Virus record (IMG/VR): IMGVR_UViG_3300042381_000088
Span: 1-20,463 of that record
From: a virus
Strand: one strand, 5' to 3'
Length of the DNA stretch: 20,463 bases
The notes under the pieces are model-generated. The model had not been told where the DNA came from. It was given only the letters and a program-made list of their open reading frames with translations, and ran no database searches. Position 1 is the stretch's first letter. Each line of letters starts with the position of its first letter. This document shows positions 3,129 through 16,508 of this stretch, piece by piece. The position numbers and the translations under genes are program-made.

Positions 3129-3857
3129 TCATCCTTTACTTTTTTCAAGCGAAACACTCACAAAATTCCATCCATTTGCTTGACTCGAAAAGTCTATCGG
3201 GTTCGCACCCACAGTATTACTCCATGCCCTAATGTATTCATCCATTACCAAAGGGAAGTACGTAAAATAGTTATCTTGATGAATGTAACCGACAGTAATT
3301 GTCGGTACTGGCATCACCTTAATGGTATCTATGGTTAACCCAGCCCAAGCCAAAGGATACCTTGTATCCAATTTGTTTAATCCCGAACCGAGATTCATGG
3401 CATCCCTACGCCACACAGTAGAAGTAATCGTTGTCGAAGCAACAAGAATAGATTTGTCACCAAGACTATTCATATAGTCACACAGTTTTCCCGAAAACCC
3501 TGCGTTCACTTCACGACTGTTTGCAGTCCAATGCAATACTCGACCGACGCCATCCAACATCGGTAACAACATTTCAATAGTGTTGGGCAACATGGTGTCG
3601 TCGTCTCCGAAAACCCAAACATATTTACCTTCGCCCTGTGTGATACCACGAAGTATGTTCGGGTCGCCGTCAATGTTTTTTAATCTTTTGCTGTATTGAA
3701 CCTGCGTATACCGTTTAACGAACTGTTCCGCATACCCGTTAGGGTCATTGTCGCTAACGATAACTTCAACATCGTCAACAATTTGTGGCACTATCGATTC
3801 CAAACACGCAAGTATGTCAGGTCTATTAAACGTAGGAATATAGATTGTTAACAGCAC
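3129..3857 (-). CDS. Family 2 (GT-A) glycosyltransferase
   Basis: 242 aa. The N-terminus TIYIPTFNRPDILACLESI (4-22) with EVIVSDNDPNG at 31-41 is the nucleotide-sugar binding half of the GT-A fold, and FGDDD at 83-87 is the DxD-type metal and nucleotide binding motif. The C-terminal half is less conserved and no acceptor domain was recognised. It has no signal peptide or membrane segment, so it should act in the cytoplasm. Donor and acceptor are unknown: it might modify phage DNA, a virion protein or a host surface glycan precursor. The start is GTG 3857, sharing its first G with the TAG of the membrane protein gene. It sits after the lysis genes, away from the other glycosyltransferase at 13881-15014. 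Confidence 0.85.
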   Translation of the reverse strand: MLLTIYIPTFNRPDILACLESIVPQIVDDVEVIVSDNDPNGYAEQFVKRYTQVQYSKRLKNIDGDPNILRGITQGEGKYVWVFGDDDTMLPNTIEMLLPMLDGVGRVLHWTANSREVNAGFSGKLCDYMNSLGDKSILVASTTITSTVWRRDAMNLGSGLNKLDTRYPLAWAGLTIDTIKVMPVPTITVGYIHQDNYFTYFPLVMDEYIRAWSNTVGANPIDFSSQANGWNFVSVSLEKSKG

Positions 3858-4075
3858 TACTTCTTATGTTCTTTAAGATGGCTTTCTAAACCGTTAGCAA
3901 CTTTATCAACTTTATGCTCAACCCTGTTCACACTACTGAACACGTGTTGCAACATACCAGAAACAACAGCGTGGTCTTCCTGATTTTCTTTACGGAACTG
4001 GGCGATGATTGTAACAATCACACCACCTACCGCTGTCACTACAGCAGACAGTATTAAAGCCCACCCGCCATCCAT
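3857..4075 (-). CDS. Small membrane protein with C-terminal coiled coil, holin-like candidate
   Basis: 72 aa. One hydrophobic segment (about residues 5-26, WALILSAVVTAVGGVIVTII) is followed by a charged heptad-patterned helix (VNRVEHKVDKVANGLESHLKEHKK). This layout of a short exterior N-terminus, one membrane span and a cytoplasmic coiled coil is common for small proteins next to phage lysins, either holins of the XhlA-like type or accessory membrane proteins. It starts at ATG 4075, overlapping the endolysin TAA by one base, which couples their translation. Either this or the two other small membrane proteins upstream could be the holin; the sequence does not decide between them. Confidence 0.65.
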   Translation of the reverse strand: MDGGWALILSAVVTAVGGVIVTIIAQFRKENQEDHAVVSGMLQHVFSSVNRVEHKVDKVANGLESHLKEHKK

Positions 4076-4614
4076 TATGCGGGCTTAACTTTCGCTTCGA
4101 AATCCAACACCGCTTGCGGCAAATTGTCGCCACATACATAGCGGATATGCCACGGCTCAGATTGAACTTCCCAACTGAATCCAAACTTTTCGCAGTTCTG
4201 TAGCATCCAATCTAAACGTGCGCCGTTCGCTGACCAAACATCAACAGCCAAACCCCACCCATGATTCGATGTGCCTGGGGATGCCATCGGAGCCATACCT
4301 TTTTTAAGGAACCATTTCTTGCCTTGATAGGTACGTGTTGTGTTAGTCCCTGTGTCCTTTAACACGAACCGTGACATGAACCCTGCTAGTTGCTGGTCGA
4401 AAGAACGGTACGCATCTGCGCTCGAAGTCGGTTTGAACGGTTTGGTTCCTTCAACCTGCATAGCGGCGTCATGTAACGCTTCCCATGCCCGTGCCGCGAG
4501 ATGATGTAACTTCCCTGAAGGTGTGATAGAGCGCATGATGTCGGCAGATAGTTTGCCGTTCTGCGCTCCCTTCAAATCTTTCGGGAGTACAAGTTTAGCG
4601 ACAGGATACTTCAT
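4075..4614 (-). CDS. Endolysin, M15 family peptidase (VanY/D-Ala-D-Ala carboxypeptidase-like)
   Basis: 179 aa, a single catalytic domain. AYRSFDQQ at 68-75, SNHGWGLAVDVW at 116-127 (His118, Asp125) and SEPWHIRY at 152-159 (Glu153, His156) give the His-x6-Asp...Glu-x2-His zinc and catalytic set of the VanY/L-alanoyl-D-glutamate peptidase group. It should cut peptide cross-links of host peptidoglycan at lysis. There is no signal peptide and no recognisable separate cell-wall binding domain, so release would depend on a holin. The gene is flanked by small membrane protein genes, coupled on both sides by TAATG overlaps. The exact bond cleaved cannot be read from sequence. Confidence 0.92.
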   Translation of the reverse strand: MKYPVAKLVLPKDLKGAQNGKLSADIMRSITPSGKLHHLAARAWEALHDAAMQVEGTKPFKPTSSADAYRSFDQQLAGFMSRFVLKDTGTNTTRTYQGKKWFLKKGMAPMASPGTSNHGWGLAVDVWSANGARLDWMLQNCEKFGFSWEVQSEPWHIRYVCGDNLPQAVLDFEAKVKPA

Positions 4615-4859
4615 TACTTTTTCTTAGTCTTGGTTCCGAACGCTGCTGAGATTTCTTCTGATGTAAGTTCGCCGTCAACTGATGCGGCTGCGAGTTTCTG
4701 TACGACACCGAACAGGGCTGTGAGTCCTGCAACACCAGCGGACTTGACCACATCGACACCGAGGATTGCTCCACCTGTGATGATAGGTAGGGCTGATGCA
4801 ATGAACAGCGACACGAGGCGTTGTGTGAGGTCTAAGGTTTTGGCAATCATGGAGTTCAT
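4614..4859 (-). CDS. Small membrane protein, holin candidate
   Basis: 81 aa. A long hydrophobic region (about 16-60) contains LVSLFIASALPIITGGAIL and AGVAGLTALFGVVQKLAAA, probably one or two membrane spans, followed by a charged tail ending KTKKK. This resembles small actinophage membrane proteins located beside the lysin. The start chosen is ATG 4859, with AAAGGA 6 nt upstream and an ATGA overlap with the 55-aa gene; a longer in-frame reading to 4988 would cover that gene almost completely and was rejected. The stop overlaps the endolysin ATG by one base. The acidic segment GELTSEEISAAFG just before the basic tail is similar to the ends of some phage holin-like proteins. Confidence 0.68.
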   Translation of the reverse strand: MNSMIAKTLDLTQRLVSLFIASALPIITGGAILGVDVVKSAGVAGLTALFGVVQKLAAASVDGELTSEEISAAFGTKTKKK

Positions 4860-5023
4860 TCTGTGTCCTTTTGTGTTAGGGATATCAACGAGTGTATCAA
4901 AATACCTGCACCTGTTAACAGTAATGCCTGTCTTAAGGTAGGACCTGACAAGGTAATTAAAACCATGCCTGTACCTACCCATGTCCAAGTGTTATCCATT
5001 ACGTAGTTGATGATGCGTTTCAT
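4856..5023 (-). CDS. Two-span small membrane protein, holin candidate, 55 aa
   Basis: Starts at ATG 5023 (TAATG overlap with the PA14-like gene) and ends in an ATGA overlap with the 81-aa membrane protein gene, filling an otherwise empty stretch. Two hydrophobic segments are visible: about 13-26 (TWVGTGMVLITLSG) and about 33-50 (ALLLTGAGILIHSLISLT), separated by a short loop with Pro and Arg, and the protein ends in a charged tail. This is the shape of a small class II holin. Together with the neighbouring membrane proteins and endolysin it forms the lysis cassette. Pore formation is an inference from shape and position. Confidence 0.7.
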   Translation of the reverse strand: MKRIINYVMDNTWTWVGTGMVLITLSGPTLRQALLLTGAGILIHSLISLTQKDTE

Positions 5024-6729
5024 TATCGTCTGATTCTAGTAGGTGGTATTGCGGCGAGGAGTGCGCCTGCGGCTACTAGGGTTCGGCGTTCACCGACGGG
5101 GATGTTTGACCCTGTTGGTACATAGTTGTCGAATTGTGAGCCGAAGATGTCAATGGTTTTTTCGAACGCTTGTTTGACTTTGGTTGGGGCTTCTTGGATG
5201 GCTTCGGTGAAGGCTTCTAGTTGGGTGTCGGATAGTTCTTCTACGACGATTTGTTCAAAGAGTTCTTCAGCCTGAGTTTCGGTGATAGCAGCCAAAACTT
5301 CGGGGCTTGACGCTATTTCGGTGGCTTGGTCTGAGGTGATGTCTGCGGCTAGGACTTGGGTGATGGCTTCAACAATCTGTTCAGGTGCGGCTTCGCTGAG
5401 GGTTTCTAGGATTTGTTCTACTTGTTCGTTGGTGACGGGTTCATTTTTGATGACTTCTTGTAGGGCTTCTGTTATTTGTTCGTCGGTTACAAGTTCGGGT
5501 AGGGTTGTGGTTGATGAATCCTGTACTTCTAATAGTGTTGTTTCTGGTATATATTCCTGCGGCTGTGTTGTGTCTGTTGGCTGCTCTTTTTCGTCAAGAA
5601 CAATCTCAACTTCGTCGTCGGGAACGAATGTCTCAGGAATCGTTGTCTCAACAGTATCTTCAGGAAGACCGTCAGGATAGGTTGTAGTTGTTTCTGGTTC
5701 GGTGGTGTCGGGTACGGTTATGGTTTCGGGTAGTGTCACGAATGTTTCAGGTACGGTGGTTTCGGGTACGGTTATGGTTTCAGGTTCGGTTGTAAATGTT
5801 TCGGGTTCGGTTGTCTCAGGCACGTAAACTGTGGTTTCGGATACGGTTATGTTGGTTACGGGCTGAGTCCAAATGGTGGGGATAGTCGTTGATGTTTGAG
5901 TCGGCGTATAAGGGGGTTCAGTTGTTGTGGTCGTGGTTGGAACTGTCGTTGTCGTTGTTGTGGTTGTTGATGTTGTGGATGTGGTTGTTGATATCTGAAC
6001 TGGCTCTGTGGTTGTGGAACTTTCTGTGGGTGGGGGTACTGTAGATGATGTCATTGTTGATATCTGAACTGGCTCTGTGGTTGTGGTCGTTTCTTCAGGA
6101 AGGGTTGTTGTAGATGAAGTGGTTGTTGTTGACGACGATGTTGTTGTGGTTGTCGTTGTACTCGTACTGGTCGTTGAAGAAGAAGTAGTTGTGGTCGGGG
6201 TGGCTTCTTGAGTGAACGCCTCGTCTGGCACTATCGCCCAGCCTTCGTTGTCTATGTTCCATGCAAGCATGATGCACGAGTTCCCGCCATGCTCATACAT
6301 CCACACATTGAAAGCGTTGCTACCAGACTCTAAGGTTAGTTCGCCTGACTCCATCCATGAGCAACCTTGGTCGTTCCAGTTGCCGAATGTGTTGCCGTCA
6401 ATCTCCATCTCGCCACCATCATCTGTGGCAAGCATAAACTCAATCGTGTCGTGTTCAGGTATGTCAATAAAGCCTGCCATGTGAACCATAAACAAGTCAC
6501 CCGTGCAATCCTCAAATAACTCGTAGTCGTAGTTGCGGTTGATGTTGTTCTCAACCTCTGTTCCGCAAACTAGATATTCGGTGTCGGATTGTGTTGGCGG
6601 TATTTCGTCAATCGTGTAATAGACGGTTTCGATTCCTGGGATTGGTTCAGCGTTGGCGTTCTGTGGTATTAACGCAAACAGGATTGCTGGTAGCGGTATC
6701 AGCCAGCGTGTTAGACGAGTTCTATCCAC
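5023..6729 (-). CDS. Secreted PA14-like, Thr-rich (mucin-like) protein of unknown role
   Basis: 568 aa. A signal peptide (RLTRWLIPLPAILFALIP then NANA-EP, cleavage near 27) is followed by a PA14/GLEYA-like region at about 36-172, with EFMLATDDGGEMEIDG and later WNIDNEGWAIVPDEAF. A Thr/Ser-rich linker (about 175-290) contains a duplicated EPVQIST unit; Pro-Glu-Thr repeats (about 300-400), an acidic helical region (about 425-535) and a short C-terminal hydrophobic segment before a basic end (PPTRIRR) complete it. PA14 domains bind glycans; Thr-rich linkers are usually extended. The start is GTG 6729 with no clear ribosome binding site, overlapping the previous gene by 19 nt. A phage protein with a signal peptide just before the lysis genes is unusual; it may act at the host surface or come from a host gene. 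Confidence 0.78.
   Translation of the reverse strand: MDRTRLTRWLIPLPAILFALIPQNANAEPIPGIETVYYTIDEIPPTQSDTEYLVCGTEVENNINRNYDYELFEDCTGDLFMVHMAGFIDIPEHDTIEFMLATDDGGEMEIDGNTFGNWNDQGCSWMESGELTLESGSNAFNVWMYEHGGNSCIMLAWNIDNEGWAIVPDEAFTQEATPTTTTSSSTTSTSTTTTTTTSSSTTTTSSTTTLPEETTTTTEPVQISTMTSSTVPPPTESSTTTEPVQISTTTSTTSTTTTTTTTVPTTTTTTEPPYTPTQTSTTIPTIWTQPVTNITVSETTVYVPETTEPETFTTEPETITVPETTVPETFVTLPETITVPDTTEPETTTTYPDGLPEDTVETTIPETFVPDDEVEIVLDEKEQPTDTTQPQEYIPETTLLEVQDSSTTTLPELVTDEQITEALQEVIKNEPVTNEQVEQILETLSEAAPEQIVEAITQVLAADITSDQATEIASSPEVLAAITETQAEELFEQIVVEELSDTQLEAFTEAIQEAPTKVKQAFEKTIDIFGSQFDNYVPTGSNIPVGERRTLVAAGALLAAIPPTRIRR
5985..6086. repeat. 33-bp exact direct repeat in the Thr-rich linker
   Basis: The same 33 bases occur at 5985-6017 and 6054-6086, a period of 69 bp (23 codons). 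They encode the EPVQIST segment with flanking threonines. Exact identity over 33 bp within drifting ACC/ACT codons points to a recent in-frame duplication. Confidence 0.85.
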
Positions 6730-7055
6730 ACTCGGTTCGGTTCAAACCATGCATAGCGTTTGCCTTCAACGACTGGCATTGGTGTTGGTGGTTGCCAATC
6801 GAAGTTGTCGTCTAAAGTCCATGAGCCGTATGGTTGTGGGCAGATGAACACATCGTTCACCGCATCGTAGGTGTATCCGATTCCTGCGTACTGTTTGCGT
6901 ATGTTGCCGTTGTAACTTGTGCGTACACAGGTTTGGTTACGGAATGTGCTGTAGAACTCTTCAGGTGTTTTGCCGTCTATGAGTTCTGTTTCTTGTACGC
7001 CGACTATCACTTCGGTGACTCGGTTGTTTGTGTCTAGAAATGCGTAATGTGCCAT
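6711..7055 (-). CDS. Conserved phage virion-associated protein of unknown function
   Basis: 114 aa. It opens MAHYAFLDTNNRVTEVIVG, has a central TSYNGNIRKQYAGIGYTYD, then PQPYGSWTLDDNFDWQPP, and ends in a Trp-rich strand. This pattern (AxLD...N.V..VIV; TSYNGN..KYAGIG; PQPY.SW.LD) is well known in marine phages such as cyanophages, where it is found among structural and appendage genes without a proven role. The start is ATG 7055 with AGGAG 8 nt upstream. It lies directly after the two glycine-rich adhesin-like genes, so an attachment to tail fibres or a chaperone role is plausible. Confidence 0.78.
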   Translation of the reverse strand: MAHYAFLDTNNRVTEVIVGVQETELIDGKTPEEFYSTFRNQTCVRTSYNGNIRKQYAGIGYTYDAVNDVFICPQPYGSWTLDDNFDWQPPTPMPVVEGKRYAWFEPNRVWIELV

Positions 7056-7070
7056 AAGTATTCTCCTATT

Positions 7071-8027
7071 CTATGCCCACGACACATTGCCTGTGCCTGC
7101 GGTAATCGTTGTAACTTTGTTTGAACCATCTGTGGCTGTTGAACCTGTGAGACCGCCACCGATAGTGATAGTGAAAGTGTCTGCGTATCGCAAGATGACT
7201 ACACCACTACCACCGTTACCGCCTGCTGTGTTTGTACCACCACCACCAAGACGACTACCGCCACCACCACCGCCACCAAGATTTACCGTGCCGTTATTGC
7301 CAACATTGTTTCCGCCTGCCGTGCCACCAGCACCACCACCACCAACACCACCTGCGCCTGCCGTGCCACCAGCATAAGTTCCTGCACCACCGCCACCGCC
7401 GTAAGTCACCGACGAACCACTAATGCTTGACGCTGTGCCTGCACCGCCAACACCTGCAAGACCTGACGATGCGTTACCGCCCACCGCCAATGTGCCACCG
7501 CCACCGCCACCACCTTCGTTAGTTGCGTTCGTGCCTTGACCACCATCTTTACCTTGATTGACTGTGCCTGTACCTGCGGTGTGTCCTGTGTATGAAGCAC
7601 CGCCACCGCAACCACCGTTCAAACCATCTGAAAATGATGCGCTGTTACCTGCACCACCAGCACCGCCACCAGTAGAAGTGATTGTTGAGAAAACCGAATT
7701 GCTACCGCTAGTCGCATAAGCCTGACCTGTACCGCCAGCATTCGGTGTTACGCCTACACCACCAGCACCAACAGTCACCGTACAAACAACACCAGTTTCT
7801 ATAGACAACGGAGTTTCTAAACTGCCACCGCCACCCGTAGCCGTGACTGTGCTGCGCATACCGCCAGCACCACCACCCGTACCACCAGTATCGGCTGCAC
7901 CACCACCAGCGCCACCACCAGCGACCACAAGAAAATCAACAACAACAGGCAAACTATATGTTGCTGCAGGGATAGACACATGACTAGAAACATACCCACG
8001 GTCACGAACACGACTATTCCTAGACAT
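7071..8027 (-). CDS. Glycine-rich tail fibre/adhesin protein, copy 2
   Basis: 318 aa. A short N-terminus with RDRGYVSSHVSIP and FLVVAGGGAGG is followed by a long polyglycine-rich core with GGGG runs interrupted by variable loops, e.g. STGGGAGGAGNSASFSDG. The last 50 residues (TITIGGGLTG...NVSWA) are less Gly-rich. This is the layout of the glycine-rich domain family found at phage tail tips, comparable to the polyglycine II sandwich of T4-like gp38 adhesins. It is adjacent to and clearly homologous with the 295-aa protein upstream (shared GYVS N-terminus, VVAGGG, GGGGSLETP block). ATG 8027 overlaps that gene's TGA by one base. Receptor binding is inferred. Confidence 0.82.
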   Translation of the reverse strand: MSRNSRVRDRGYVSSHVSIPAATYSLPVVVDFLVVAGGGAGGGAADTGGTGGGAGGMRSTVTATGGGGSLETPLSIETGVVCTVTVGAGGVGVTPNAGGTGQAYATSGSNSVFSTITSTGGGAGGAGNSASFSDGLNGGCGGGASYTGHTAGTGTVNQGKDGGQGTNATNEGGGGGGGTLAVGGNASSGLAGVGGAGTASSISGSSVTYGGGGGAGTYAGGTAGAGGVGGGGAGGTAGGNNVGNNGTVNLGGGGGGGSRLGGGGTNTAGGNGGSGVVILRYADTFTITIGGGLTGSTATDGSNKVTTITAGTGNVSWA

Positions 8028-8914
8028 CAGAAAGTAATCGTTCCACTAGCAGTAAAAGTATAAACAGTTCCCGACACGGTTGGTGAACCAGTCGTAGATG
8101 CAGCGACTTGTCCAGCGTCAATAATGACCACACCACTACCACCAGCACCACCGCTTGTTGAGCGACCACCACCGCCACCACCGCCAGTATTTGCTGAACC
8201 TGCTGTCGCTGCACTTCCGCCTTGAATTGACCCTGTGCCACCGCCACCGAGACCGCCAGCGCCTGCGACTGCAAATGCACCACCACCGCCACCGCCACCG
8301 TATGAAACACTTGAACCACTAATTGTTGTAGTTATTCCTGCACCACCAGCGCCACCCGTCAAAGGTGTTAATAAATTTGTGCCACCAACTGCACCAGCAC
8401 CACCACCACCAGCGCCAGCACCACCACCACCAGCCGAATAATCACCGCCAGCAAAACCTTGATTTGCTGTGCCTGCACCACCTGTAGTTTCGCCTGAATC
8501 GGAATGTGCGCCACCACCCGAACCACCAGTATTCGCTGCGCCTGTAGTACTTGTGTTGTTAAATGCGCCACGACCACCACCAACAGTTGAAATGGTTGTG
8601 ATATTGCTACCAGCAATAGAACTTGTTGAACCGTTCGTGCTTGCTTGTGGTGCTGTCGTACCGCCGACACCGCCAGCGCCAATCGTCACCGTGTAAGCCA
8701 CGCCTGCAACAACTGCAAACGGCGTTTCTAAACTACCGCCACCACCCGTTGCATCTTTTGTGCAACGCAAACCGCCAGCACCACCACCGCCGTCGCCTTG
8801 AGTACCGCCACCACCGCCACCACCAGCGACAACAAGATACTGTGCAACTAAAGGTTTATACACCGCTTCGACTTCGTACGCCGACACATAGCCCTGCGAC
8901 CTAGTGCGAGCCAC
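8027..8914 (-). CDS. Glycine-rich tail fibre/adhesin protein, copy 1
   Basis: 295 aa. N-terminus RSQGYVSAYEVEAVYKP and QYLVVAGGGGGGG, then a glycine-rich core (about 35-260) with GGGGSLETP, VTIGAGGVGG and several GGGG runs, and a short C-terminal strand region (TVYTFTASGTITF). It is a paralogue of the following gene. The start is GTG 8914, whose G is shared with the TAG of the 63-aa gene. Long runs of GGT/GGC codons make the DNA repetitive, which could favour recombination between the copies. The expected role is binding host surface receptors at the tail tip; the host ligand is unknown. Confidence 0.82.
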   Translation of the reverse strand: MARTRSQGYVSAYEVEAVYKPLVAQYLVVAGGGGGGGTQGDGGGGAGGLRCTKDATGGGGSLETPFAVVAGVAYTVTIGAGGVGGTTAPQASTNGSTSSIAGSNITTISTVGGGRGAFNNTSTTGAANTGGSGGGAHSDSGETTGGAGTANQGFAGGDYSAGGGGAGAGGGGAGAVGGTNLLTPLTGGAGGAGITTTISGSSVSYGGGGGGGAFAVAGAGGLGGGGTGSIQGGSAATAGSANTGGGGGGGRSTSGGAGGSGVVIIDAGQVAASTTGSPTVSGTVYTFTASGTITF

Positions 8915-13742: not shown

Positions 13743-13884
13743 GGCTTGCTTTCATGTTGTCAATCAGGTTCGGGTATGGTCGCCCCGCTTTTTTCGCTGA
13801 TGCTTTCGCCGCCGCTTTTTTTGCTGGTGACAGTTTCTTAGATTTCTTCTTAGGGTTCTTTGTTTCCCACACAGGCTTTTTCAT
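13735..13884 (-). CDS. Very basic small protein, 49 aa
   Basis: ATG 13884 overlaps the TGA of the glycosyltransferase as ATGA, and the TAA at 13737-13735 overlaps the DUF6321-like gene by 8 nt. The 49-aa protein has 14 lysines: MKKPVWETKNPKKKSKKLSP, then AKKAAAKASAKKAGRPYPNL and IDNMKASRG. The AGRPYPNLxDN end is recalled from small proteins of marine phages, often next to the DUF6321-like gene, which supports a real conserved gene. The Ala/Lys-rich middle is histone-tail-like. Function unknown. Confidence 0.8.
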   Translation of the reverse strand: MKKPVWETKNPKKKSKKLSPAKKAAAKASAKKAGRPYPNLIDNMKASRG

Positions 13885-15014
13885 AATGTCTCCAATAGGT
13901 ATCCCGATTGTTTTAATACTTCACGAACATTCAACACTACAGTATAGGTTACGTTCGGTTTCAAATCTATGATATGGGTTCCGATTGTGGCTTTGATGGC
14001 ACGTTTAACCCGTATTTCGCAGGTGGGTTCTAACGCCATCCAGTTCGATGGGACAGTTTTGTCGGATGGTTTAACTATCTGTAACAGTTGTTTTGCTGAT
14101 GTATCCCAGTTGAATGCTTCTGTTTGGGGTGCTGTGTGTGCGGCTTGTTTACGGTATTTGTCACGGTTGTTGTAGATGTCTTTAATGGCTTCGGCTGTTG
14201 CTTCTGGGTCTGGTTCATCCCAGTCGCCCACGTTTTGCCATACACCTTTTGCTGTTGGGACAGGTGTGGTTGGGATTCTGTGGGTGGCTAAATCTGAGAA
14301 TTCTTTGTGACCGTGGGCGTCGGACAGGATGGTGGGTATTCCTGCGGAGATTGCTTGTAGGGGCATCAGTCCGAATCCTTCGCCTCTGGATATGGATATG
14401 AATGCGTCGGCAGATAATACTAAATCTCGTTCTTCTTCAACGGTCATCCATTCACGGTGAACTATAACGTTTGGATATTCTAAATCTTTTGGTGCGAACA
14501 AATGTGGTGGAACTATTTTGATATGTAGTTCCGCGTCGGGTAGTTGAAGTTTGTTGAATACTTCTAGTACGACATCTAAACCTTTGCGATACCATTCGGA
14601 GCCGCCGCATAATAGTTTAAATTTTTTGTTTGGTTTGTGTGGTTGGGGATGCCAGATGGTGCGGTCTACTGCGAGTGGGATGACTCGAACGTTGTCATGG
14701 TATTCGGAGAACAGTTCCCAGTTATGTAAACTTGGTACTAAAATTGTTTTGAAACTGCTTAAATATAGAGAGAATTCTGGTGGTAGCCAGTTTGTTTCCC
14801 ACATTGTTAACAGGTGGGTGATTTGTTGTTGTTGCCAACCTTTAATCATGTTTGGTCTTAAAGCAAAAACTGTGTGTTCTGCTAAGTCGTCAAACGTGAC
14901 GTGTTTGGATAGCGCTTGGCGTAAGCCTTGAACCATTTTGCCGTACCCAACTTTAGGTATATCGACTCCGACAAGGTTCAGGTATTTGGTAGAATGCCTG
15001 TCTCCACTTGCCAT
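13881..15014 (-). CDS. GT-B glycosyltransferase (family 4-like)
   Basis: 377 aa. N-terminal Rossmann domain starts with LVGVDIPKVGYGKMVQGLRQ (14-33); the C-terminal domain has VIPLAVDRTIWHP (111-123), LLCGGSEWYRKGLDVVLE (134-151) and SISRGEGFGLMPLQAISAG (207-225). RKG and EGFGL are donor-sugar binding motifs of GT4. The usual E-x7-E reads Glu212...Gln220, so the second Glu is replaced. The last 60 residues (IRVKRAIKATIGTHIIDLKP, then YTVVLNVREVLKQSGY) look like an added beta-rich domain. The start ATG 15014 lies 37 nt inside the CxxC gene. Located among tail genes, it may glycosylate a virion protein; donor and acceptor are unknown. No membrane segment is visible. Confidence 0.87.
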   Translation of the reverse strand: MASGDRHSTKYLNLVGVDIPKVGYGKMVQGLRQALSKHVTFDDLAEHTVFALRPNMIKGWQQQQITHLLTMWETNWLPPEFSLYLSSFKTILVPSLHNWELFSEYHDNVRVIPLAVDRTIWHPQPHKPNKKFKLLCGGSEWYRKGLDVVLEVFNKLQLPDAELHIKIVPPHLFAPKDLEYPNVIVHREWMTVEEERDLVLSADAFISISRGEGFGLMPLQAISAGIPTILSDAHGHKEFSDLATHRIPTTPVPTAKGVWQNVGDWDEPDPEATAEAIKDIYNNRDKYRKQAAHTAPQTEAFNWDTSAKQLLQIVKPSDKTVPSNWMALEPTCEIRVKRAIKATIGTHIIDLKPNVTYTVVLNVREVLKQSGYLLETL

Positions 15015-15253: not shown

Positions 15254-15546
15254 GTAATGTAACTCCCGTATCCTGCGGCTGTTAACGCTGCTACTTCTTC
15301 TGCTGTGACTTCTGTTTGATGTCCACCATAATATATTTTAGAAATCCTTGTCGCATCTGATGGCTGGTTTTCGGTGATGGTTGTATCTGTTAACAGGAAC
15401 ACGTTGCGTCCACGTGGGCTTAACGCCACATGTTTACCCCATTGGTTCGCTAACCGTTCTGTGGCTGCCAAGTATTGTCCGTTCATGAATTCGCCTGCTA
15501 TCACAGGTGATACAAAGTTGTCTGTTGGTGGGCTGAATGTTGCCAT
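15250..15546 (-). CDS. Small virion protein with YYGGH domain
   Basis: 98 aa. N-terminal part: TDNFVSPVIAGEFMNGQYLA, RLANQWGKHVALSPRGRNVF, then the C-terminal 30 residues RISKIYYGGHQTEVTAEEVA and ALTAAGYGSYIT. The C-terminal domain is also the end of the preceding 320-aa protein (ISKVYYGGHDIF...ELTAAGFGANIT). Such a YxGGH...LxAAGYG-xIT ending is recalled from actinophage structural genes. ATG 15546 overlaps that gene's TAA by one base. It may be a truncated paralogue that shares a docking site with the larger protein. Confidence 0.75.
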   Translation of the reverse strand: MATFSPPTDNFVSPVIAGEFMNGQYLAATERLANQWGKHVALSPRGRNVFLLTDTTITENQPSDATRISKIYYGGHQTEVTAEEVAALTAAGYGSYIT

Positions 15547-16508
15547 TATGTGATGTTTGCTCCGAATCCTGCTGCTGTTAGTTCTGCTACTTCTGTGTCG
15601 TCTAAGAAGATGTCGTGTCCACCGTAATACACTTTTGATATTAGTTCTGGTCTGCGTGGGTCTGTTATCTGGTATGTGTTGTTTGTGAGTTTATACAGGT
15701 TGTATGCACGTATCCCTTGTGGGGTGTGAGCGAATAGCCTATCTGAATCGGTTTCTGGGTAGCGTGCAGCGAACGAGTAGTCGCTTGTGATGCCGACACG
15801 GAAGATGTGGGATTTAACCCAGTCGGCTGTTTGTGCGCTTGTGCCTGCACCTGTGGCTGTGCGTCGTTCAATGCGTGCCCCAACACCAGTTTGTGTTCCT
15901 GTACCTGCGCCTGTTGCTGTGCGAATAGATACCAGCAGCCAGTTACCTGTTTCTGTTCCCGCACCTGAACCTGTTGCGGTACGGATGTTGATAACCAAAT
16001 CGATTGCAGTACCTGAGCCAACAGCGGGACCCGTACCGAGACGTGCTTTAATTGGATTTGTTGACGCCGCACCCGAACCTTCACCTGAACCAGTAGCGGT
16101 GCGCGGTGCAATATGCAACCCCGTTGAATCCATTGTGCCGACACCTGAACCTGTAGCAGTACGAACAGCAACAAGGATTCCTACCGCAGTAGCACTACCA
16201 GTACCACCACCTGTCGCAGTTCTGAACCTAACAATGTTTATCGAAGAAGAAGCAGTACCTAAACCTGATGCTGTAGCAGTAACAGTAAGAACCGCACGAA
16301 CACCAAGATAGAAACGTCCGCCCGTAAGATACGGAAAACTAAAATCGGTTAACTGACCGAGACGTATTTGTGCTGCACCGTGCGCCACTTCAGATGTACC
16401 GCCACCTGACCCGACAGCGGTGCGTTGTACTGTACGAAAATATGTTTGCCGATAAAACGGGCTTGTGTCTACAAACGGTTCTTTAAAACCTGTTATTGCT
16501 GAAGCCAT
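15546..16508 (-). CDS. Tandem-repeat tail/appendage protein with YYGGH C-terminal domain
   Basis: 320 aa. Residues 1-75 form a head region that holds one separate repeat copy (RTAVGSGGGTSEVAHGAAQI, 29-48). Residues 76-235 are eight tandem 20-residue repeats of the form RTATGSGxGT followed by about ten variable residues ending in alternating hydrophobics. The C-terminal part (236-320) has SDYSFAARYPETDSDRLFAH and the YYGGH domain shared with the next gene. A regular 20-residue Gly/Thr repeat suggests an extended beta structure such as a fibre shaft. Start ATG 16508; the gap upstream has a small hairpin. A tail fibre or spike role is inferred from repeat architecture and position. Confidence 0.75.
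   Translation of the reverse strand: MASAITGFKEPFVDTSPFYRQTYFRTVQRTAVGSGGGTSEVAHGAAQIRLGQLTDFSFPYLTGGRFYLGVRAVLTVTATASGLGTASSSINIVRFRTATGGGTGSATAVGILVAVRTATGSGVGTMDSTGLHIAPRTATGSGEGSGAASTNPIKARLGTGPAVGSGTAIDLVINIRTATGSGAGTETGNWLLVSIRTATGAGTGTQTGVGARIERRTATGAGTSAQTADWVKSHIFRVGITSDYSFAARYPETDSDRLFAHTPQGIRAYNLYKLTNNTYQITDPRRPELISKVYYGGHDIFLDDTEVAELTAAGFGANIT
15804..16283. repeat. Eight tandem 60-bp repeats (20 codons each)
   Basis: Eight uninterrupted 60-nt units encode the RTATGSGxGT-type repeats. Spacing is exact with no insertions. Unit 5 is the most diverged (RLGTGPAVGSG) and unit 1 begins VTATASG. The conserved half of each unit is better preserved than the variable half. Confidence 0.85.

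Follow-up and report, generated by a model that had tools for sequence, protein, structure and literature searches.

Relation to described systems

In PA14 lectins, a pair of adjacent aspartates (DcisD) binds both calcium and sugar (PMC8092209). Lectins of this kind occur at the cell surface on Thr-rich stalks in RTX adhesins (MpPA14) and in the fungal Flo and Epa proteins. The surface protein considered here, encoded in a virus record of 20,463 bp (the window), shares the fold, the aspartate motif, the stalk and, by prediction, the surface location. It differs from these adhesins in that it is phage-encoded, lies in a lysis operon, has a head that can be swapped with other lectins and appears to be anchored by a bipartite membrane module rather than by RTX or GPI elements.

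A second comparison is with exported superinfection-exclusion proteins. The Llp protein of phage T5 is exported and blocks adsorption to infected cells and to the fragments left by lysis (PMC9586334). Like Llp and other proteins of this type, the window protein would be exported to the surface of the infected cell and would act there on receptors. Llp, a small lipoprotein, works by jamming a single outer-membrane protein (FhuA), whereas the window protein is large and stalked, with a putative lectin head, a predicted cytoplasmic-membrane anchor and a probable actinobacterial host.

The fibrillar adhesins and LPXTG proteins of Gram-positive bacteria have the same succession of signal peptide, adhesive head, stalk and C-terminal motif followed by a hydrophobic stretch and a basic tail. 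In the window protein, however, no LPXTG-like motif precedes the hydrophobic stretch of the anchor (the motif there is VPTGSxIxV..RRTL), the anchor is paired with a separate or fused domain of two transmembrane helices (two-TM), and the module is confined to one bacterial family and phages. Spanins, which serve diderm hosts, and class II holins are likewise small membrane proteins beside holin and endolysin. No significant match to holins or spanins was found for the surface protein or, by fold, for a related C-terminus, and the pair described here adds an exported head.

True relatives are found in the Actinomycetia phage DSL-LC01 (WJZ48438.1; same C-terminal module, fused two-TM tail, other ectodomain) and among BFVD proteins of uncultured Caudovirales (for example A0A6J5P167; same module, other ectodomains), all deposited as hypothetical proteins or under domain names. 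In the open-licence literature searched we found no description of such a device. Our preferred reading, held tentatively and with rather less than even confidence, is that it is a two-part surface-display device of the lysis module of Acidimicrobiia phages, mostly glycan-binding and most likely receptor-covering.

Gene and domain architecture

The main genes of the window, that of the surface protein included, lie on the minus strand. The coordinates of the original prediction (5023–6729) were right, and the gene and its parts are as follows.

6711..7055, minus strand: upstream gene (phrog_7759), function unknown; shares 19 bases with the start of the surface gene
5023..6729, minus strand: surface protein gene, 568 aa; GTG start at 6729, TAA ending at 5023
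6649..6729, minus strand: signal peptide, residues 1–27, MDRTRLTRWLIPLPAILFALIPQNANA followed by EP; called from sequence
6208..6648, minus strand: predicted PA14 carbohydrate-binding domain, residues 28–174; Pfam, model, fold and profile matches
6418..6423, minus strand: Asp103-Asp104, counterpart of the DcisD calcium/sugar pair in PA14 lectins; unchanged in all 34 aligned sequences
5491..6207, minus strand: stalk, Thr-rich then Pro-Glu-Thr, residues 175–413; site of ectodomain exchange
5131..5490, minus strand: acidic helical module, residues 414–533; MgtE_N/FliG_M-like in some relatives
5026..5130, minus strand: anchor DNYVPTGSNIPVGERRTLVAAGALLAAIPPTRIRR, residues 534–568; conserved motif, short hydrophobic helix, Arg tail

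The signal peptide has a basic start, a hydrophobic core and a cleavage site between ANA and EP. Its features were retained in 133 of 145 distinct N-termini of the family, compared with 95 of 500 control ORFs, as judged by a simple computation (not SignalP), as were the membrane calls. The linker is long (250 aa, residues 176–425) and contains 97 Thr, 31 Glu and 29 Pro residues, as the Thr-rich and Pro-Glu-Thr description had it. In the helical part, relatives match only MgtE_N and FliG_M above the Pfam cut-off; the matches of the window protein itself to FdhE, IreB and OSCP were discarded as low-score noise.

The C-terminus, RRTLVAAGALLAAIPPTRIRR, is hydrophobic and ends in RIRR, in agreement with the hydrophobic, Arg-ended terminus first noticed. 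The anchor is composed of the motif GSxIxVxxRRTLVAA, a hydrophobic helix and an Arg tail, and the helix with its tail is a predicted membrane anchor. A model of the fused C-terminus from a relative (locus L212) comprises a confident helical domain, which bears out the acidic helical region noted earlier, a long helix starting from RRTLIAA, a disordered linker, a β-hairpin and two long helices. A fold search with this model returned no match in the PDB at E ≤ 0.001, and its matches in BFVD were unnamed or domain-named proteins of uncultured Caudovirales. The likely topology places the head outside, the first helix into the membrane and the Arg tail inside. In fused proteins (for example L212:3806-4615), the linker between the anchor helix and the two-TM segment contains a conserved acidic stretch, EEExxGEIAGPEDDD, and a β-hairpin motif, NSIFKYY...KKF. 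This linker is probably cytoplasmic, and split forms lack it.

The gene lies between appendage-type genes and the holin/endolysin cassette, as described originally. Because it comes after the appendage-type genes, sharing bases with the final one, and tail fibres can contain lectin domains, it might be read as a virion or tail component with a chance signal-like start. We consider this very unlikely: the features of a cleavable signal peptide are kept across the family, there is a membrane anchor with a two-TM partner, and homologues occur in bacterial chromosomes. The signal peptide, fold, stalk and anchor instead agree with the earlier view of a secreted surface protein that is not an obvious virion part, and no result here points to its incorporation into particles. 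Further upstream, two adjacent glycine-rich fibre-like proteins of similar build (Pfam Gly_rich_2; 7071-8027 and 8027-8914, minus strand) are absent or different in several relatives and are probably a duplication.

The PA14 domain

The PA14-like domain of the original prediction is upheld by structure prediction. With Pfam PA14 (PF07691) the window protein scores 20.7 bits, under the 24-bit cut-off, which is exceeded in the relatives L014 (24.9 bits), L175 (28.9 bits) and L245 (33.8 bits). The AlphaFold2 model, built from an alignment of 34 sequences, is a β-sandwich of the PA14 fold (mean pLDDT 92.7, pTM 0.88). Foldseek aligned it with PA14 proteins in the PDB at E 1e-8 to 1e-6 (TMq ~0.8), among them the RsgI3 PA14 domain, the sugar-bound adhesins Epa1 and Flo5, and a Marinomonas PA14 lectin in complex with various sugars; the family profile matched PA14 chains among the PDB sequences with E 7e-27. 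The domain evolves with a dN/dS of 0.04–0.05, indicating strong purifying selection. Since close relatives of the protein are moreover encoded at 29 viral loci, the gene is more than a chance reading frame. The model and the conserved aspartates suggest that the domain binds sugar in a calcium-dependent manner.

A two-TM partner

A previously unlisted ORF of 55 aa with two hydrophobic helices lies between the surface gene and the holin gene. The ORF and the lysis genes beyond it are as follows.

4856..5023, minus strand: two-TM partner, 55 aa, MKRIINYVMDNTWTWVGTGMVLITLSGPTLRQALLLTGAGILIHSLISLTQKDTE; its start shares bases with the surface-gene stop (TAATG)
4614..4859, minus strand: holin, 81 aa; its start overlaps the two-TM stop (ATGA); Pfam Phage_r1t_holin E 0.0035, below cut-off
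4075..4614, minus strand: VanY-type endolysin; Pfam VanY E 8.9e-12; adjoins the holin end

The two-TM ORF is present at all 90 of the 90 close viral loci that contain the end of the surface gene, and begins between 4 bases before that end and directly at it. The surface protein of phage DSL-LC01 (OQ999401) instead ends in the two-helix segment itself, as do the surface proteins of many large viral contigs and the products of some host genes. A profile built from just five separate phage versions identified, at E < 1e-3, 100 fused tails, together with 147 downstream ORFs; among 39,316 ORFs it picked out no unlinked one. The viral loci partly repeat the same contigs; after deduplication, 92 viral genes are split, 73 are fused, five are cut by the contig and one (L254, at the locus edge) has no two-TM segment. 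The 13 host genes divide into eight fused and five split. Split and fused occurrence of this kind usually signifies joint action, which suggests that the surface protein and the two-TM protein cooperate, and they may form a complex.

Linkage to the lysis genes and mini forms

The holin ORF had been listed at 124 aa but most likely begins at ATG 4859, giving 81 aa. The PHROG labels 'nuclease' (holin ORF) and 'tape measure' (VanY) derive from partial matches, and the names were not adopted. The holin neighbours the surface gene and two-TM gene in most relatives, and in close relatives surface gene, two-TM, holin and VanY follow one another unchanged even though VanY drops to 45% identity. Of 150 distinct loci with sufficient sequence downstream, 138 have a holin or endolysin gene no more than 3.5 kb away; several of the remaining 12 have little upstream sequence. 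For the fused forms, contigs of more than 200 kb among them, the figure is 66 of 68. The surface gene is present once in 21 of 22 viral records of 32–268 kb and twice in the other, further weak matches falling inside the same ORFs. The partner, this fixed link and the ectodomain swapping described below are additions to the original picture.

When the search was started from VanY, most loci with upstream sequence contained the module. At several of the others, a mini form of ~80–90 aa occupies the same place (L330-L334, L343, L353, L356, L372, L373, L377), made up of a signal peptide, ~30 residues that include one or two Cys, and an anchor patterned like that of the long forms (GSRIPEEQRKTLNAVVLLTVVAPLSRQRR in L343); behind it come the two-TM gene and, in most cases, an identifiable holin. 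Because the profile matches them poorly (E 0.15 for L343), the mini forms are judged to be kin by pattern, position and partner. The C-terminal anchor pattern was present in 137 of the 147 split proteins and absent from all of 12,698 other ORFs; the profile searches were seeded by pattern scans and miss distant members. Apparent intermediates at L340, L342 and L348 still have a stalk and what is left of the helical module. Another conserved small membrane protein (LDARLKFVVGCVLAGVLTxTTxGVLYALVFVTQPIGAQAEND) occurs near the lysis genes of large phages (L145, L160, L215, L249, L154).

The mini forms may indicate that the core role resides in the membrane part and not in the lectin. One explanation in this direction is that the anchor helix and two-TM protein belong to the holin machinery (as a pinholin, an antiholin or an envelope-disrupting part), with the ectodomain as a handle or sensor. 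The lysis-gene neighbourhood is fixed in both small and very large phages and the two-TM gene overlaps the holin gene, yet in large phages the lysis gene can lie on the opposite strand, kilobases away. A lysis factor would also be risky in the host chromosomal copies, which have no phage genes nearby, and the strong conservation of PA14 likewise counts against it. We regard this role as rather doubtful but as a serious rival, because the mini forms, having lost the ectodomain, keep the anchor, the two-TM gene and the lysis neighbourhood.

Exchange of the ectodomain

Comparison of pairs of loci indicates that the ectodomain is exchanged while a near-identical anchor stays. The modules of L052 and L055 are 99% identical and their heads are unrelated; L237 and L245 differ in their heads, with both flanks ~85% identical. 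The reverse is seen in L025 and L026, with PA14 domains 98% identical and modules 47% identical. Within the same gene pairs, synonymous divergence is 0.46 for PA14, about five times the 0.08–0.10 of the module. The heads of the family include several kinds of PA14 domain, L-type lectins (E 1.6e-40 and 5.7e-43), SUEL lectins, fibronectin III domains, a small Trp/Cys domain (L051, L055, L066, L075, L084) and unnamed others; for many of the ectodomains no fold can be named. Heads and modules may plausibly be recombined within the repetitive Thr stalk, and the window phage encodes RecE-like and annealing-protein genes.

A Thr-rich stalk topped by a lectin, here PA14, L-type or SUEL, is also how fungal and bacterial adhesins are built, and host homologues with RCC1 and DUF4082 domains resemble surface adhesins. 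The displayed lectins could accordingly tether infected cells to neighbours or particles, such that progeny would be released among fresh hosts. Planktonic freshwater hosts are sparse, however, lysis soon after late expression would leave little time for adhesion, and the mini forms are almost without ectodomain. This second serious rival is, in our estimation, unlikely.

Homologues in host chromosomes

Acidimicrobiia are abundant in fresh water, few have been cultured, and knowledge of their phages comes from metagenomes alone. A search of genome contigs with the full-length surface protein gave no match; the C-terminal profile alone found host copies. Within one Acidimicrobiia family, chromosomal genes contain the module (13 of 150 genomes, a single copy per genome); it occurred in five of 296 genomes sampled across the class, all of the same family, and, among 396 genomes spread over Actinomycetota, in one member of that family plus one marginal match. 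This supports the actinobacterial style perceived in the original prediction. The heads of the host proteins are RCC1-like or DUF4082 domains, or only a Pro/Thr stalk is present. A host sorting signal borne by many surface proteins per genome is ruled out, since module-bearing genomes have exactly one copy.

The neighbours of the host genes are ordinary genes in an order common to related genomes, with no phage genes nearby. Some of the genomes are MAGs, and binning error may explain single cases, but the shared gene neighbourhoods make it unlikely for most copies. In two otherwise different chromosomal neighbourhoods a VOC/glyoxalase-like gene (MATIREIVIDC) lies near the host gene (L134-L136, L138, L141, L142).

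The restriction of the module to phages and a single Acidimicrobiia family suggests that phages with the surface gene infect this family. A search for prophages with the major capsid protein gave only marginal matches in the host family (E ~3e-4) and was of no help in host assignment. As for the direction of transfer, the host-to-phage route originally envisaged is not favoured. The host copies do not form one clade in a module tree of 77 rows and 143 columns, and they require at least four changes. The sporadic presence in hosts and the far larger diversity in phages favour repeated capture by hosts, which we consider at least as likely. Homologues in one bacterial family could also mean that phages had picked up a plain host gene without a specific phage role; with host copies rarer and polyphyletic, and the phage gene under purifying selection, essentially single per record (32–268 kb) and mostly beside lysis genes, this is highly improbable.

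Proposed function

The gene order, the split or fused partner, the lysis linkage and the exchange of heads rest firmly on sequence and models, and the function is deduced from them. The signal peptide features, the PA14 model with its adhesin matches, the invariant aspartate pair and the occurrence of other lectins as heads lead us to favour lectin display. The 568-aa protein would be exported and its signal peptide removed; the Thr-rich stalk would carry the calcium-dependent sugar-binding PA14 domain through the cell wall, and the anchor and the 55-aa two-TM protein, translated together, would both be lodged in the cytoplasmic membrane. The pair would be made late, with holin and endolysin, and the heads would coat the outside of the infected cell before lysis. 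By occupying surface glycans that serve as receptor, they could prevent the loss of progeny on the same cell or its fragments and keep rival phages off. This benefit is conjectural and drawn by analogy with T5 Llp.

T5 Llp and similar proteins are made early; the placement of the surface gene with late genes argues against receptor covering. An improbable variant is an outside-in sensor, in which anchor helix and two-TM protein couple the sugar-binding head to the holin and time lysis by what the cell touches (free host glycans, debris or a superinfecting phage). The head would then be exchanged as hosts or receptors change, and mini forms would be reduced sensors or anchors.

A single-copy, lysis-linked surface gene in phages of ~40 kb and of more than 200 kb suggests a general late-infection need at the cell surface, and the conserved anchor with exchangeable head points to a widespread and so far undescribed means of altering the dying cell's surface. 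The split or fused partner offers a directly testable protein complex, the swaps are experiments done by nature, and the combination of anchor and two-TM gene could serve as a specific marker for such phages and related host genes.

Other genes of the window

Two glycosyltransferases are encoded on the minus strand, one behind the lysis genes (3129-3857) and one among structural genes (13881-15014); in L013 the gene of the 3129-3857 type is itself located among structural genes. A structural-type protein with repeated RTATGSGxG motifs (15546-16508, minus strand; phrog_23524) is possibly a decoration protein.
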